Below, in pieces: positions 7,358-17,785 of a DNA stretch of 43,173 nucleotides. This DNA comes from Candidatus Woesearchaeota archaeon. Lineage in GTDB: Archaea; Nanobdellota; Nanobdellia; Woesearchaeales; JACPIF01. Where the stretch lies: positions 1 to 43,173 of the forward strand of contig JACPIF010000010.1 in NCBI GenBank assembly GCA_016188215.1, given 5' to 3'. A program made the translations under genes and the position numbers. The notes under the pieces were generated by a model, which did not search any database, was not told where the DNA came from, and worked only from the letters and a program-made list of their open reading frames with translations. Within the stretch, counting starts at the first letter, position 1. Each line of letters starts with the position of its first letter.

Positions 7358-9421
<2,064 letters not shown>

Positions 9422-9574
9422 TTATAGGGGCTATAAATGAGTTATAATGGGTTTATAGAGCACCATGACCCAATTTTTGCCTTCAAAGAACATCCAATTG
9501 AAATATGCCTAAAATTAAAAAATATATACACTAAATATATATATACACATATCCTTTTGTGCATATTTGGCAGG

Positions 9575-10525
9575 GTGATTTACATCAAAAGAAAAGTTGT
9601 CTTACATGGCCCATCAACGCTTATTATATCACTTCCAAGCAAATGGGCCAAAAAATATAATATAGAAAAAGGAGCTGAGCTGGAAGTACTTGAAGAAGAC
9701 AAGAATCTGATTATTACTTCTGACTCTGTCTGGAAGCCGCTTGAGGTGGATATCGACATATCAAACCTTGATAGAAGTTCTATAATGTATGTAATTAGAA
9801 GCTTATATCGCTTAGGTTACGACGTAGTCCGTGTTCAGTTTCAAAATTCTACTGCTCTTTACCAAAGAACAGGAAAAGAAATCAGTGTGATCTCCATTAT
9901 ACACACAGAGATTAACCGTCTCATTGGATATGAAATTATTCAAGAAAAGGGGAATTCGTGCATTATTAAAGACATACAGGAGACCTCTACAAAGGATTTT
10001 GATCAGATACTCAGAAGAATATTCCTAATGATTATTGATACATTTGGTGCCCTTCTTGAAGGCGCTAAGGTAAACAGTATGCAACTTCTTGAGACAATTG
10101 AGGGTAAACACGATACCATTACAAAATTTGTGAGTTATTGCATGAGAATGCTAAACAAGAAAGGATATCCTACACCAAGGAAAACTGCATATTATTATCA
10201 CATTATAGCATACTTAGACAGGGTCACTGATATCCTGAAATATGCAGCCAGGGATTTGATATCCTACAATAAGAAATTAAATCCTCAGGCAATTCCTTTA
10301 CTTGAGCTGGTCAATGCGAATATCCGATTATATTACGATCTCTTCTATAAATATGAGAATAAGAAAATAGTGGATATGGATAATAATAGGTATAAGGCAG
10401 AAAAGATTGTAAAAGCATTGCCTTCCTCATTAAAGCCTACGGAAATGGTTATTGTTGTCAGTATATACCATATCATGGAGATGCTTCTTGATCTCATTGA
10501 GGCGCGGACTGCTTTGCAGTTTTAA
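9575..10525 (+). CDS. AbrB-PhoU family regulator, paralogue 1
   Basis: 316 residues. N-terminal SpoVT/AbrB DNA-binding domain (IKRKVVLHGPSTLIISLPSKW) followed by a helical PhoU-like region. The family is annotated as a phosphate uptake regulator. I place the start at a GTG: the next residues VIYIKRKVV align with the starts of the two paralogues at 14050 and 15456, and a box A-like TAAATATATATATA lies near 9532-9545. An ATG at 9437 would add 46 residues with no counterpart in the paralogues, although it has its own TATA-like sequence near 9391. No phosphate transporter genes are in the window, so a link to phosphate is not shown here. Confidence 0.8.
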   Translation: MIYIKRKVVLHGPSTLIISLPSKWAKKYNIEKGAELEVLEEDKNLIITSDSVWKPLEVDIDISNLDRSSIMYVIRSLYRLGYDVVRVQFQNSTALYQRTGKEISVISIIHTEINRLIGYEIIQEKGNSCIIKDIQETSTKDFDQILRRIFLMIIDTFGALLEGAKVNSMQLLETIEGKHDTITKFVSYCMRMLNKKGYPTPRKTAYYYHIIAYLDRVTDILKYAARDLISYNKKLNPQAIPLLELVNANIRLYYDLFYKYENKKIVDMDNNRYKAEKIVKALPSSLKPTEMVIVVSIYHIMEMLLDLIEARTALQF

Positions 10526-10539
10526 TAGTGCCATAGTGC

Positions 10540-12024
10540 CTACCGTATTGTTACCCTACCGAGAGTCTGATAAGGATAAATATTTTTGAGTCCCCATAGA
10601 ATATACCTTATCATATGCATCACGTTATTATCAAGTACCTGGGCATCCCTACCTGTAATCTCATCAGGCACTTTTCTATGATGTTCAATAGGATTAAAAA
10701 GATAGAGGTCATAGGGATACTTAAGAAAGTCCGCAAGCTGCCTATCTGCTTCTTCAAGAGAAAGCCCTCTACCCTCCCGTGTTTCAGCTGCTCGGACTAA
10801 TTGCTCTGCTGCTGCAACCATGAGCACTGATTTGATGGGAATTCCTTTTGATTCATAGTACCCCTTAAATATTTCCAATGATTTTGGGTTTCCTATTGTT
10901 AGGATACCATCATGTCCCTCCTTTATCCTCCGCTCAACAAGGCCGGATTCTATTCCAACGCGATAAACCCTTCGTTCAGTCCTGTGCGTGAAATATGGAC
11001 CCATCCTTCCCTCTGCAATGATCTGATCAAACTTTGCCTCGTCAACAAAAAGATGATCATCACCCTGTATTTCAAAGGGACCCGGCTCTCTAGTTGTGTA
11101 TCTTATTATTTTGTCAACTGTTGGAATTGAGAGCTTAATTCTATCTATCAATGTCGTTTTTCCTGTTCCCTGTGCACCAGCCATAAAGATCAAATTAGCA
11201 TTCCCTTTTTCTAGAATATACCTGATGGCCTGGATCCTAGTCTCATATTGACGCTTAATGCCATCAAAAAGATCCTCTGATGAAGTTATCAAATGCACTT
11301 TTTGCCCATATTCACCAGCTGCCAAAGCTGGATCCCAGGTACTGTCCGCAAAGACTGCGATCTTGAGCAGAGGGTAGAGTCTTTTTAGTTCATCAATATA
11401 AGGCATAACATCTTCCGGGTTCTCGCCTGGTTTTTGTGGAAGCCTGGATTCAAGGACCAAGACCCCTATTTGCCTAGTCCTTAGCAACCGCCTCACACCT
11501 TCAAATGTATCAGCAACAGATAGCTCTGTTGGCGACACTTGATCTGCAGTTAACCCCATTCTCTGTTGGTAGACTTCAGACATTTGACCTTGAATTTGAA
11601 ACATAGTCCTGTTGCCCACATTTGCCGCGAAAAGAATACTGGGAACCTCGCCAACTTTAAGCCTGCTCTTTGCTTCAAAAAGACGGGTGACCAGCTCGTC
11701 AAGATCCGTGCCGTTGCTAAAAGAATCAATGCGGCATTTCCTCATAGCCTGCACGGCATCAGGGACTGAATCAGTCACCAGCACTACCTTAGTTTGGGAG
11801 AGGTTTGCCTCTATTCTGGCATTCTCAATGTGCTTGACATCATCGGTAATGATTACTGGATTGATATCTGTCTGACCAAGTTTGTCTGCAATATGTTCTC
11901 CAGAATCTTCAAGGACGAAATAATTCTTTGGATTGAGGTGCCGCTCAACTGCGCTCCTAAATGAAGGCCTGCCGGCTAGTATAACTGCATTTTCAAGATC
12001 TCTTTGCCTCGTTCGTTCTTCCAT
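10540..12024 (-). CDS. Receiver-like domains fused to guanylate-kinase-like P-loop domain
   Basis: 494 residues in three parts. Residues about 14-115 and 130-265 look like two alpha/beta receiver-type domains (strand-ending motifs VIITDD, KVVLVTD, IGVLVLESR, KIAVFAD), without a clean phospho-acceptor Asp triad. The C-terminal part has Walker A GAQGTGKTT (283-291), then the GMP-binding-like RYTTREPG (308-315) and GDDHLF, in the order found in guanylate kinase. The usual YGT site reads YRV, so kinase activity is doubtful. The ATG at 12024 is chosen because an upstream box A (TTTAAATA) falls inside the longer frame; a weak AAGGT lies before this ATG. Its location between AbrB-PhoU regulators suggests nucleotide sensing or signalling (inference). 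Confidence 0.65.
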   Translation of the reverse strand: MEERTRQRDLENAVILAGRPSFRSAVERHLNPKNYFVLEDSGEHIADKLGQTDINPVIITDDVKHIENARIEANLSQTKVVLVTDSVPDAVQAMRKCRIDSFSNGTDLDELVTRLFEAKSRLKVGEVPSILFAANVGNRTMFQIQGQMSEVYQQRMGLTADQVSPTELSVADTFEGVRRLLRTRQIGVLVLESRLPQKPGENPEDVMPYIDELKRLYPLLKIAVFADSTWDPALAAGEYGQKVHLITSSEDLFDGIKRQYETRIQAIRYILEKGNANLIFMAGAQGTGKTTLIDRIKLSIPTVDKIIRYTTREPGPFEIQGDDHLFVDEAKFDQIIAEGRMGPYFTHRTERRVYRVGIESGLVERRIKEGHDGILTIGNPKSLEIFKGYYESKGIPIKSVLMVAAAEQLVRAAETREGRGLSLEEADRQLADFLKYPYDLYLFNPIEHHRKVPDEITGRDAQVLDNNVMHMIRYILWGLKNIYPYQTLGRVTIR

Positions 12025-12227
12025 GTGTAATGACCTTAGATATAGCTTAGACGAAAGAACAACGTTATTTAAATATAGCGACGAATAGCGATAAGCTGGA
12101 GCATTACACCCTTGTAATATGATTATTCCCATAAAATAGCTACACTACAGAAATATATGCCCCCAATTTGTAATTATCCCATATATGTTCTAAAAGATTT
12201 ATAACGTATAGTCTTTTACGATTGTCA

Positions 12228-13648: not shown

Positions 13649-13801
13649 CTATATAGCCTCATCCCATCCCATCATTATCGCCTCTTCCCAATCCGCTATC
13701 TCGTCGTTTTCCAATGCCTCCTCCCTATTCCCCTTGTTATAGATGCTCATGTCATCGTCCCTGTCAAACTCCTCGTCTTCTTCCCAATAGTTCAAATCCA
13801 T
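13649..13801 (-). CDS. Small acidic Trp-rich peptide 1, 50 aa
   Basis: A short gene read directly from the minus strand. It begins MDLNYWEEDEEF and ends DWEEAIMMGWDEAI, with about 40 percent Asp plus Glu and three Trp. A strong ribosome-binding leader, GGGGGTGGTTTTAG, lies immediately before the ATG, and a TTAAATAAA box A lies further upstream, which together argue for real translation. It shares its C-terminal pattern and leader with the 42-residue gene at 15042-15170. Both are minus-strand and flank the AbrB-PhoU gene at 14050. A role as an acidic partner or DNA mimic for a DNA-binding AbrB protein is only a guess. Confidence 0.6.
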   Translation of the reverse strand: MDLNYWEEDEEFDRDDDMSIYNKGNREEALENDEIADWEEAIMMGWDEAI

Positions 13802-14049
13802 CTAAAACCACCCCCAAAGGTTTATTTAATCTATAATTTCATAGACTATATTGGGTTCCAAGTCACTGCCTCGCTTTGAGGAAGATAGCAACACCTGAAA
13901 CCCTCTTTTCCAGACACACACCCCAAAAAGAATTAAACTAGAGCTTCCCGCATAGTATTTGTATTTAATCCATATATGATAGATATGCATAAGCTTTTCT
14001 TCTAAAAATATGCATATAAACTTTATTAACTGATATGCTCTTTTAGCGT

Positions 14050-15033
14050 ATGGTGATTCTTATTAAACGCAAAGTCGTGCAGCATGGTCCATCAACGCTT
14101 ATCATATCCTTGCCTTTTAAATGGATAAGGCGGCACAATATACGCAAAGGGGATGAGCTGCAGGTGGACGAGCTTGAAGACAAGATTATGATTGCAGCAA
14201 AGAATGCTGACGTGCAAGAGAAGATAACGCTGGATATCATGCCATTTGGCAAAATGGTTACCCAAATTATCCGAGCCCTTTATAAAAGGGGCGTGGATGA
14301 AATCAAGCTGCTTTATGATTACCCCGACATGTTTGATACTATTGAGAAGTCCCTGGGAAATGAATCTGTCAGCTTTGAGGTGCTGGAAACAGGCAACAAT
14401 TTCTGCATCATCAAGAATGTATCTGAAGGGAGCAGGGAGTTTGAGCATGTGTTAAGGCAGACCTTCATCCTGCTGCTCTCCATGTCCGAGGAAGGATGCG
14501 AGGCGCTGAAGCAGGGCAACCTGAGCCAGCTCAATAACCTAAAATCCCTTGAGGAGGTTAACAACAGGTTCACTGCCTTCTGCAGGAGATATCTTAATAC
14601 TAAAGGACCTGATCGCTTTGATAAGGTAGGGCCTATTTATTACATTGTTGAGCATCTTGAAAGGATAGCAGATGTCTATAAGTACCTTTACTCCTATCTT
14701 GGCTCGCTCCATGAGCCAAAAATTGAATTTAAAAAAGAGCTGCTTGCCAAATTCAGCGAGATGAATGCCATGTTCCGCAAGTTCTACAACCAGTTCTACA
14801 AGTTCAACCCGCGCGGCATATCAGAGATAAAGGAAGACAGGGACAGGATCATAAAAGACCTGCTCGCCTTGGTGCCTTCCCTCAAGAAGCCGCATGATAT
14901 CATGCTCTTCCATCATCTGTTGATGCTTACCAATGATATCTTCTCGCTCCTTGACCCATATCTTCTGCTCTCTATAAAGGAGTACGGCCAGAAAACCCAG
15001 AACATAAAGCCATTAATATCTAAAGAAATATAA
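14050..15033 (+). CDS. AbrB-PhoU family regulator, paralogue 2
   Basis: 327 residues with an N-terminal AbrB DNA-binding domain (KRKVVQHGPSTLIISLP) and PhoU-like helices (FEHVLRQTFILLLSMSEEG, YYIVEHLERIADVYKYL). It is the most divergent of the three copies in the PhoU part. The ATG at 14050 matches the paralogue starts. CTTTATTAAC lies about 25 bases upstream as box A. The upstream region contains two TATGCAT motifs that could be operators. It is bracketed by two minus-strand acidic peptide genes. Confidence 0.82.
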   Translation: MVILIKRKVVQHGPSTLIISLPFKWIRRHNIRKGDELQVDELEDKIMIAAKNADVQEKITLDIMPFGKMVTQIIRALYKRGVDEIKLLYDYPDMFDTIEKSLGNESVSFEVLETGNNFCIIKNVSEGSREFEHVLRQTFILLLSMSEEGCEALKQGNLSQLNNLKSLEEVNNRFTAFCRRYLNTKGPDRFDKVGPIYYIVEHLERIADVYKYLYSYLGSLHEPKIEFKKELLAKFSEMNAMFRKFYNQFYKFNPRGISEIKEDRDRIIKDLLALVPSLKKPHDIMLFHHLLMLTNDIFSLLDPYLLLSIKEYGQKTQNIKPLISKEI

Positions 15034-15041
15034 AAGAAAGA

Positions 15042-15170
15042 CTAAAAGGCCTGGTCCCATTCTTCAATCCAGTCGTCCTCCTCGTCAAGCCATTGCCCCG
15101 AGCTGTGCATCCCTTCCTCACCCTGATACTCCTCAATGAGGGCCTGAATCCTTGACTTCGTATTGCTCAT
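15042..15170 (-). CDS. Small acidic Trp-rich peptide 2, 42 aa
   Basis: A second tiny minus-strand gene. It begins MSNTKSRIQALIEEY and ends DEEDDWIEEWDQAF. Its C-terminus matches peptide 1 (13649-13801) in the pattern DW-x-E ... W-D-x-A followed by a hydrophobic residue and stop. Its leader GGGGTGGTGGCAG before ATG is nearly identical to that of peptide 1 (shared GGGGTGGTnnnAGATG). It ends 8 bases after the convergent AbrB-PhoU paralogue 2. Conservation of both leader and C-terminus between two otherwise different peptides is the main support for coding. Confidence 0.6.
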   Translation of the reverse strand: MSNTKSRIQALIEEYQGEEGMHSSGQWLDEEDDWIEEWDQAF

Positions 15171-15229
15171 CTGCCACCACCCCGTTGATACTTGGTGACA
15201 CCTTTTACGCTAGCTTAGTTCTTGCTTCT

Positions 15230-15455
15230 TATATAATCTCTGCTTATATTTTATATTGTATTTAAAAGATATAGGGCAGCATTATTCTTTAAGTTATCTA
15301 TAGCATATGGCGTATGAATTAATAAATCTTAAAGAACCAAACGGGCTTTCAGTATAGCTTATAGTATACTTAAAGTTATATAACCTCTTATATAAACCTT
15401 AAAATAAAGAAAAATTTAAATAAAAGGCGATATTTATATAAAGAACGGGGGAAGC
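15230..15455 (+). promoter_or_regulatory. AT-rich regulatory region of AbrB-PhoU paralogue 3
   Basis: A very AT-rich stretch with several possible box A sequences (TTTAAATAA near 15415-15423, TATTTATATAAAG near 15430-15442) and a partly palindromic AGTATA...TAGTATACT near 15352-15371. The gene that follows has a GGGGGAAG ribosome-binding site, so its mRNA has a short leader. The abundance of repeated TATA-like motifs fits binding by several copies of a regulator, possibly the AbrB proteins encoded alongside (inference). Confidence 0.4.
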
Positions 15456-16400
15456 ATGAAACGCAAAATCATACAGATCGCTGACTCAACCCAGCTTGTA
15501 TCGCTGCCCAGGAAATGGAGCATAAAGTATAACCTGAAGAAAGGGGACGAGGTAGAGGTTGAAGAGCAGGGGAACAAGATACTTGTCAGCACGGAGAAGG
15601 GTGTTGAACTAAAAAGCATAGAAATTGATGTTACTGGGCTAGACAGAACCACCATTCTTTATTATCTGCAATCTCTCTATAGAGCTGGATATGATGAAAT
15701 CAGGGTAGTCTTTAATAACCCTATCACAATGCATTTCAGGGCAAATAAAACAATGAATGTCATAACTGTTATTCATACCGAGGTTAACAGGCTAATAGGG
15801 TACGAGATAATACAGCAAAAAGAGAACTTTTGTGTCATAAAAGATCTTTCTACCAGCTCAATTAAAGAGTTCGACAATGTCTTCAGGAGAATCTTTTTAC
15901 TGATTAAGGATGCAAGTTCAGACTTATTAAAAGGGGCTGCTAATATGAATGTAAGGCTTATAGAGACTCTTGAGGAGAAGCATGACTCAATTACAAAGTT
16001 CATTAGCTACTGTGCCAGATTGCTGAATAAATATGGGTATACTGACCATAGAAAAACCACAGTTCTTTACCATGTTCTCATAAGCTTAGACCGTCTAACA
16101 GACGTAATAAAAAATGCAGGCAGGGATTTATTGAAATTCAAGCAGAAAAAATTAGATAATAAGACTATCCATTTACTATCATTAATTGATTCAACAATCA
16201 ATATTTACTCAGAATACTTTTTTAATTTTGACTTAAAAAAAGCCGTTGAAATCTATAAAAACAGAAATGAAGTGCTTAATTTGCTCTATCAATATAAAAA
16301 TAAGCTGTCCTCTGATGAATTGATTTTAATGGGCAAAATGAGTCATTCTGTAGAATTATTAGCTGATGTTGAGGTAGCAAGGATGGGGATTGAATATTAA
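15456..16400 (+). CDS. AbrB-PhoU family regulator, paralogue 3
   Basis: 314 residues, closest to paralogue 1: both contain YEIIQ, a KDxxxTSxKxFDxxxRRIFL stretch and the block ETxExKHDxITKFxSYC. The AbrB domain (MKRKIIQIADSTQLVSLPRKW) has lost the HGPST motif of the other two, so its DNA specificity may differ. A GGGGGAAG ribosome-binding site sits directly before the ATG. Its stop codon overlaps the end of the convergent P-loop gene by 4 bases. Confidence 0.82.
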   Translation: MKRKIIQIADSTQLVSLPRKWSIKYNLKKGDEVEVEEQGNKILVSTEKGVELKSIEIDVTGLDRTTILYYLQSLYRAGYDEIRVVFNNPITMHFRANKTMNVITVIHTEVNRLIGYEIIQQKENFCVIKDLSTSSIKEFDNVFRRIFLLIKDASSDLLKGAANMNVRLIETLEEKHDSITKFISYCARLLNKYGYTDHRKTTVLYHVLISLDRLTDVIKNAGRDLLKFKQKKLDNKTIHLLSLIDSTINIYSEYFFNFDLKKAVEIYKNRNEVLNLLYQYKNKLSSDELILMGKMSHSVELLADVEVARMGIEY

Positions 16401-17785
16401 TAAGGCCGGATTTGCTCCCCGCCCACTGATAACCCGAATCTTTGCAGATCAGCCATTGAGTATCCAGTAACAGCAATACGACTCGATTGCTTTCCCCTCT
16501 GATATAAGAATCCGATAGTAAGTGAAACATGTGTATTATTTACCATAGGATCCCCCATGGAATATACTAAACCATCTTTTACATGACGCTGCTGCCCACC
16601 ATTTCCAACATGGAATAACCCGAAATCAGAGCGCGTTAGATATGATTGGCCTCTAACAGCCCTTCTTTCTGTTGGTTCCCCTAACTTCATTTTAATTAAA
16701 TCCAATAATACATCCTCTGGACTAAATTGTAGTTCTGCACCATCTGGGACAAGACCCTTAAATAATATAGTGTGTCTGCCATTTGCATCTTCTGCCTTGA
16801 CATATTTTACAATCTCAACTTCTTTTAATCTTTGTAAAGCCTCCTGCGGAATATGACGTTGTTTCCGATATTCTTCTATTAAACCTGCGAACTGAAGTTT
16901 TATTGGACTATCAATTAGTCTGCTATCTAAATTCGCTAAACTATAACCAGTTAATTTTTGGACTTGCTCTTCAATAAATGCTTGATGTGCTCTTCCATAA
17001 CTAACCCCCTGTTTGAAATATTTATCCACCTGCTCAATTAATGAAACAACTCTTTCTGCTGTAGCTCTAATTTCTTTTATTCTTTTTTCATGAGCAGCAG
17101 GATCTAAAGGAATATTTCTATCAATAGATGGTGTAAATATTGGTATAAGATAGTCTGCAGAGTGATCTCTAAACAGTCCGAATTCTCCTTCAAAAGCCTG
17201 CAATCTTTTTATTCTTTGTTCTTCAGGTATTTTTGCCCTTATTAGTCTATCTTCAATAGTTTTAGTTGTAGTATAAAATAAGAATGTTATTGCATCTCTA
17301 AAGTGGTTCCTAAAGGCCATAGCTCCATTATGAGAATCTGAAATGTATACAATACGTTTATCTACTCTTTCTGCATCGTCTCGCCCAACTAAATTAATCG
17401 TATCAACGCCGTTATCATATTCAAAAGCAATTTTACCGCTTTTTCTTAATTGCTCTAGTTCCCTTTCAGTACGAACAATTAAACTATCTTTTTTTTGGTT
17501 GTCATCGGGCCATGGTCCGCCTAAATGCCTATACTTATGTTTTCCGCCTCGTTCAAAAACAGTCGGGTATCTCTCTTCAAGAGCATCAAGAGTGCTGCTT
17601 TTGCCTACTCGATGAGGCCCAGCTATTAAGAGTTTAGGGTATTCTACCTGTGTTCCATTTTGTTCCATAGCAGCTGAATTTTGTTGTGCATGATCTCCTG
17701 GGATAACCTCAGCTCTTAAAGCTGCTCCAAGTGCAGCAATAGTCGCTTCGATTCCCAGATCCTTTCTGATACCTTTCCAATTCAT
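16397..17785 (-). CDS. P-loop nucleotide kinase-like protein with C-terminal extension
   Basis: 462 residues. Walker A is GPHRVGKSS at 56-64, and the following region (FLFYTTTKTIEDRLIRA) resembles the lid of guanylate-kinase-like folds. Residues about 250-460 form a separate region of unknown type, ending in a small beta-rich domain. A long unstructured N-terminus precedes the P-loop, and an internal Met at residue 40 is an alternative start. Together with the 10540-12024 protein it is the second large P-loop protein associated with AbrB-PhoU genes here. It is AT-rich compared with the purine genes next to it. Confidence 0.55.
   Translation of the reverse strand: MNWKGIRKDLGIEATIAALGAALRAEVIPGDHAQQNSAAMEQNGTQVEYPKLLIAGPHRVGKSSTLDALEERYPTVFERGGKHKYRHLGGPWPDDNQKKDSLIVRTERELEQLRKSGKIAFEYDNGVDTINLVGRDDAERVDKRIVYISDSHNGAMAFRNHFRDAITFLFYTTTKTIEDRLIRAKIPEEQRIKRLQAFEGEFGLFRDHSADYLIPIFTPSIDRNIPLDPAAHEKRIKEIRATAERVVSLIEQVDKYFKQGVSYGRAHQAFIEEQVQKLTGYSLANLDSRLIDSPIKLQFAGLIEEYRKQRHIPQEALQRLKEVEIVKYVKAEDANGRHTILFKGLVPDGAELQFSPEDVLLDLIKMKLGEPTERRAVRGQSYLTRSDFGLFHVGNGGQQRHVKDGLVYSMGDPMVNNTHVSLTIGFLYQRGKQSSRIAVTGYSMADLQRFGLSVGGEQIRPY

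Follow-up and report, generated by a model that had tools for sequence, protein, structure and literature searches.

The minus-strand frame of 50 residues at 13649–13801 of the window (the whole stretch of 43 173 nucleotides that was analysed) is a real gene, divergently paired across 246 nt with the gene for an AbrB-PhoU regulator, and the protein family of its acidic product is under strong purifying selection. In the best-supported reading this microprotein acts on its AbrB-PhoU neighbour, whilst a 42 aa gene close by does likewise for a second AbrB-PhoU protein; we give this reading a probability of about 45 %. Its main rival is a gyrase-directed role, and the microprotein is probably a partner of AbrB-PhoU or of gyrase. 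The features concerned are as follows.

7358–9286, minus strand: gyrB (PF00204, E 8.2e-62), a conserved downstream neighbour in many relatives
9437–10525, plus strand: AbrB-PhoU regulator 3, divergent from gyrB (profile match from 9575)
13649–13801, minus strand: gene for the 50 aa acidic microprotein, a short-form member of the module family (single-sequence homologues, profile match, purifying selection)
13807–13814, minus strand: GGGGTGGT, SD-like leader of the 50 aa gene (genome leader search and shuffles)
13802–14049, no strand: divergent control region 1, with ATATGCATA at 13983–13991 and 14008–14016 as a candidate operator
14050–15033, plus strand: AbrB-PhoU regulator 1, divergent from the 50 aa gene (MazE/AbrB, E 1.8e-6; PhoU, E 0.002; PDB matches)
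15042–15170, minus strand: 42 aa acidic Trp-rich frame, very probably a gene, with no detectable family membership (leader, shuffles, divergent slot)
15176–15183, minus strand: GGGGTGGT, SD-like leader of the 42 aa frame (genome leader search and shuffles)
15171–15455, no strand: divergent control region 2, rich in AT; palindromes at ∼15353–15380 are a putative operator
15456–16400, plus strand: AbrB-PhoU regulator 2, divergent from the 42 aa frame (MazE/AbrB, E 7.7e-7; whole-length profile match; sister of the regulator at locus L112)

Two tiny genes with a rare leader

The two minus-strand frames, with the positions and lengths given above, and a leader common to both had been proposed in an initial annotation of this DNA, and both proposals held: the 16-base pattern GGGGTGGTnnnAGATG occurred exactly twice in the 1.11 Mb genome, each time at one of these genes. 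Dinucleotide shuffling of the intergenic region of the 50 aa gene gave a GGGGTG-led ATG frame of at least the same length in one of 5000 shuffles, and the result for the 42 aa region was likewise 1/5000. Genome-wide, GGGGTG followed by a spacer and ATG was found 38 times, compared with 10 for the reversed control. Use of the leader as a marker of more tiny acidic genes in the genome was rejected, most of the other GGGGTG–ATG sites tested preceding large genes or very short frames. An SD-like leader was present at the first start of just five of the 34 large ORFs in the window, in agreement with the earlier statement that most genes here are leaderless; 16S rRNA, sought in order to read the anti-SD, was absent from the assembly.

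Searching with the 50 aa sequence alone recovered relatives in 43 of 99 genomes, its own genome included, where a paralogue was found. Against the family profile the peptide, which is itself part of that profile, scored 62.4 bits, a value reached by none of 500 shuffles. In the closest family pairs pS (∼0.6–1.1) was far above pN (∼0.05–0.15), the four closest giving 0.63–1.07 and 0.05–0.10, respectively, so the family of the 50 aa gene shows the bias towards synonymous changes among homologues by which the initial annotation had proposed to judge it. Library searches gave no family match for either peptide, and no zinc-motif or YacG-type match was found in the libraries for these two sequences, from which cysteine is absent.

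The 42 aa frame is very probably a gene, because it carries the same rare leader and stands head-to-head with regulator 2, whose nearest relative in the AbrB-PhoU tree, the L112 regulator, is linked to a true family gene in the slot that the 42 aa frame fills in the window. That it is instead a chance frame, the 50 aa gene alone being real, we consider very unlikely. No 42 aa homologue was found among the 98 relatives searched, and the peptide was rejected as a member of the module family after scoring −0.1 bits against the profile (465 of 500 shuffles scored as high), both of which would suit a chance origin; but such leader-led frames are as rare in shuffled sequence as stated above, the leader is identical to that of the 50 aa gene and has no third copy in the genome, a true family gene fills the same slot beside the sister regulator, and acidic peptides that are likewise unalignable and have such leaders occur at other loci (e.g. 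L086, with GGGGTGGTTGCTATG). The shared C-terminus described previously is visible by eye, although the two peptides gave no significant alignment (E 0.21); this value and the profile score of the 42 aa peptide mean that the sequences cannot show a common ancestry of the two. When the 42 aa peptide was aligned with further acidic peptides from operons of this kind, no column was conserved.

Distribution of the module family

The core of the family is a module of ∼28 residues, Y-x4-RExLxENDExSxxEEAFMxGYDEA, corresponding to residues ∼21–50 of the 50 aa peptide, and Tyr, Arg, Glu and Gly were invariant in its alignment. The profile matched 163 of the 180 genomes of the order that were at least 90 % complete (the order being Woesearchaeales by the names on related records), with one to six copies in each and four in the genome studied here, and the profile search showed that further families of the same class also carry the module. 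No match to the module was found in Pfam, NCBIfam, PHROGs or PDB, the sole notable match being to a zinc finger that one member carries as a fusion, and no viral relatives were present in the viral contigs searched. Contigs labelled Methanomassiliicoccales and Nitrososphaerota/Thaumarchaeota also bore the module, either with a conserved C-terminal extension (L134, L135, L164 and L159) or with a zinc finger (L170); AbrB-PhoU and gyrB were not found beside it at these loci.

Short forms (∼40–60 aa) end at the module, and long forms possess acidic or Lys-rich tails, histone-H1-like tails or zinc fingers of the zf-FCS/TRASH type. The module also forms the C-terminus of ScpB-like proteins and the N-terminus of one SecF-like membrane protein, the names ScpB, SecF and H1 being taken from reading of the sequences and not from a family scan. 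The loci with fusions (ScpB-like proteins, histone-H1-like Lys-rich tails, zinc fingers and one SecF-like protein) formed the groups L070–L072; L073–L076 and L079; L064, L077, L078, L080 and L087; and L069. About 18 long-form loci (L151, L160, L068 and others) were situated near a gene read from its sequence as threonyl-tRNA synthetase, a conserved neighbourhood unlike that of the short forms. In G006, a zinc-finger-fused copy of the module lay tail-to-tail with gyrB (L247:2472–4660).

Divergent pairing with AbrB-PhoU regulators

Three of the four AbrB-PhoU genes detected in the genome lie in the window, together with its gyrB, and between regulator 3 and gyrB no tiny gene was detected. Regulators 1 and 2 combine an AbrB-type N-terminal domain with a C-terminal PhoU bundle, the architecture of the archaeal SpoVT/AbrB-PhoU regulators, of which TK2245 is chromatin-associated in Thermococcus kodakarensis (listed in PMC7325993); a paired microprotein is not described for these regulators in the literature found. 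The MazE/AbrB match was above the cut-off for both; for regulator 1 the PhoU match was below it, and PhoU structures in PDB were matched by both profile and fold; its predicted structure comprised an AbrB end of low confidence, a small α/β part and a PhoU bundle. The AbrB-PhoU region is flanked by two large predicted P-loop proteins with weak family matches (10540–12132, which is guanylate-kinase-like, and 16397–17785).

The suggested association of the tiny genes with AbrB-PhoU proved to be real and conserved. A divergent AbrB-PhoU neighbour was present in 44 of the 57 short forms at loci with enough flank, compared with four of the 52 long forms (p 5.5e-14, a value that overstates independence because the loci share ancestry). 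The initial annotation had placed the two tiny genes as a pair around a single AbrB-PhoU gene; both do adjoin AbrB-PhoU, but two divergent pairs, each of one tiny gene and one AbrB-PhoU gene, describe the arrangement better. Linked genes were distributed across two deep clades of the AbrB-PhoU tree, with 15 label changes compared with 19.4 in shuffles, indicating that the linkage is old and has undergone repeated gain or loss. Many AbrB-PhoU genes had no tiny neighbour.

The divergent region itself was conserved: across 12 related loci (158 columns) it was 70.5 % identical, whereas third codon positions in the gene next to it reached 49.6 % and composition would give 32 %, and it contained palindromic AT-rich blocks. 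In the window, the two copies of ATATGCATA before regulator 1 are 25 bp apart. To judge from their sequence, these repeats and palindromes would fit binding by a dimeric AbrB-type regulator.

Linkage to gyrB

The gyrB gene of the window is on the same strand as the 50 aa gene and ∼4.4 kb downstream of it. Here it is directly divergent from regulator 3 (7358–10525), and in relatives it is commonly downstream of divergent pairs of AbrB-PhoU and microprotein. Many lineages have the order AbrB-PhoU, divergent microprotein, gyrB, which was seen again at nine more loci near gyrB (L242–L246 and L248–L251); one of these (L251, in G053) resembles the window in having two successive AbrB-PhoU/microprotein pairs before gyrB.

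Many loci were micro-operons in which the acidic module peptide is followed by a zinc-ribbon peptide of ∼40–48 aa, each with an SD-like leader, and some had a third gene, also with an SD-like leader, for an acidic peptide of 33–35 aa. The zinc-ribbon family (CxxCG...DPYxCRDCE...YLD) followed the acidic peptide at L089, L090, L092, L109, L119, L127, L140, L143 and L150, and preceded it at the C10 locus of the genome studied here (L066:3881–4012); its profile matched seven places in six of 61 genomes, and at five of these places AbrB-PhoU was adjacent. The third peptide (xxPSEExxxDDFFxRF...TDxMxxFxDK) ended the micro-operons at L089, L090, L116, L127 and L140. The zinc-ribbon genes of these loci resemble Brz, a very small archaeal protein encoded beside the gene that it regulates (PMC2253796), and the haloarchaeal C(P)XCG zinc-finger micro-proteins; the module family differs in being acidic and lacking a zinc motif, and the pairs in the window lack a zinc-ribbon gene.

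This arrangement raises the alternative that gyrase is the target: the acidic peptide, together with the zinc-ribbon peptide found after it at many loci, would bind the enzyme and modulate it as YacG does in bacteria, and AbrB-PhoU would be the transcriptional switch only. YacG, a GyrB-binding zinc-finger protein of 65 aa and an inhibitor of gyrase (PMC10886550), offers a precedent for a very small protein tied to gyrase, and the micro-operons often contain both a zinc-ribbon peptide and gyrB. Of the 34 short-form loci that had AbrB-PhoU and sufficient flanking sequence, 21 had gyrB downstream on the same strand; conversely, 14 of 57 gyrB-bearing genomes (from 14 family-level lineages, and 12 of them by profile) had a family gene within ∼6 kb upstream of gyrB on the same strand, where ∼0.3 would be expected by chance placing. 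We nevertheless regard the alternative as unlikely. In the other 13 of the 34 loci gyrB was not nearby; the link to AbrB-PhoU is the stricter one, and gyrB may simply belong to the regulon of the regulator or reflect conserved synteny. Furthermore, the 50 aa family lacks a cysteine motif, the libraries searched revealed no resemblance to YacG or to another known gyrase inhibitor, and the tie of the family to gyrB is one of genomic linkage.

Predicted structure and possible action of the microprotein

The structural model of the 50 aa peptide had helices at residues 23–31 and 37–44, with block pLDDT values of 83–89 for residues 21–40 and a poorly defined acidic N-terminus. The module is thus predicted to be a pair of short helices with a D-E-(I/L)-S-P-like turn between them. 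Foldseek gave no fold match to this model and PDB no sequence match to the module; likeness to a solved anti-repressor of the AbbA type was therefore not detected in sequence or fold. AbbA of Bacillus subtilis is a small DNA-mimic anti-repressor that binds and sequesters AbrB (PMC4238804), and by analogy a similar action of a small protein on an AbrB-type regulator is proposed here; the regulator in the present case is an AbrB-PhoU fusion, the two genes are divergent neighbours, and the system is known from its genomic context. The idea of an inhibitor or DNA mimic put forward in the initial annotation is compatible with the acidity of the peptide, and DNA mimicry is possible, yet what is conserved in the family is a pair of helices with a Tyr and a Gly that do not vary. 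Two further findings stand beside this idea: zinc-finger, histone-H1-like and ScpB-like proteins carry the same module as a fusion, and the linkage to gyrB, itself conserved, provides a second possible target.

In the mechanism that we propose, the 50 aa gene would be the first gene of a divergent operon or micro-operon sharing its control region with AbrB-PhoU. Both genes would be under the control of the regulator, bound at the AT-rich palindromes that lie between them, and the microprotein may dock on the DNA-binding face or on the PhoU bundle of AbrB-PhoU, thereby relieving or tuning its binding to DNA. In this way the operon, which extends into gyrB in many lineages, would be subject to feedback. 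The 42 aa gene would play the same part for regulator 2, with a peptide that has diverged or been replaced. This reading is favoured by the divergent pairing, the linkage in two deep clades, the purifying selection, the near-universal spread (163/180), the conserved control region, the tiny, leader-bearing gene divergent from each of regulators 1 and 2, and the precedent of AbbA. Conserved neighbourhood is a measure of linkage and not of contact, so the partner proposed here is deduced from context.

AbrB-PhoU cannot be the only partner of the module, since 48 of the 52 long forms had no AbrB-PhoU gene nearby and the module was present in G018, a genome in which no AbrB-PhoU was detected. The 28 residues might accordingly be a general docking module that binds one common partner, for example in the transcription or chromosome machinery, and tags many proteins, the short form being one carrier that happens to be regulated by AbrB-PhoU. 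Such a role would account for the fusions to zf-FCS/TRASH-type zinc fingers, histone-H1-like tails and ScpB-like proteins and for the near-universal spread of the module in the order, which takes in a lack of any detected AbrB-PhoU; on the other hand, long and short forms differ in their neighbours and may therefore differ in their partners, and the names ScpB and SecF come from sequence only. We judge this explanation improbable to about the same degree as action on gyrase. A more specific version is quite unlikely: an undescribed docking tag with one common partner, carried by the microproteins of gyrase operons and by ScpB-like, histone-H1-like and zinc-finger proteins of nanoarchaea. If true, it would tie AbrB-PhoU regulation to chromosome topology.

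Action of the microprotein on AbrB-PhoU remains the reading that we prefer. The family is nearly universal in an order of uncultured archaea but absent from the protein-family libraries searched, and its conserved partner gene (AbrB-PhoU) and operon context (gyrB) make this piece of archaeal dark matter a testable system of regulator plus peptide.
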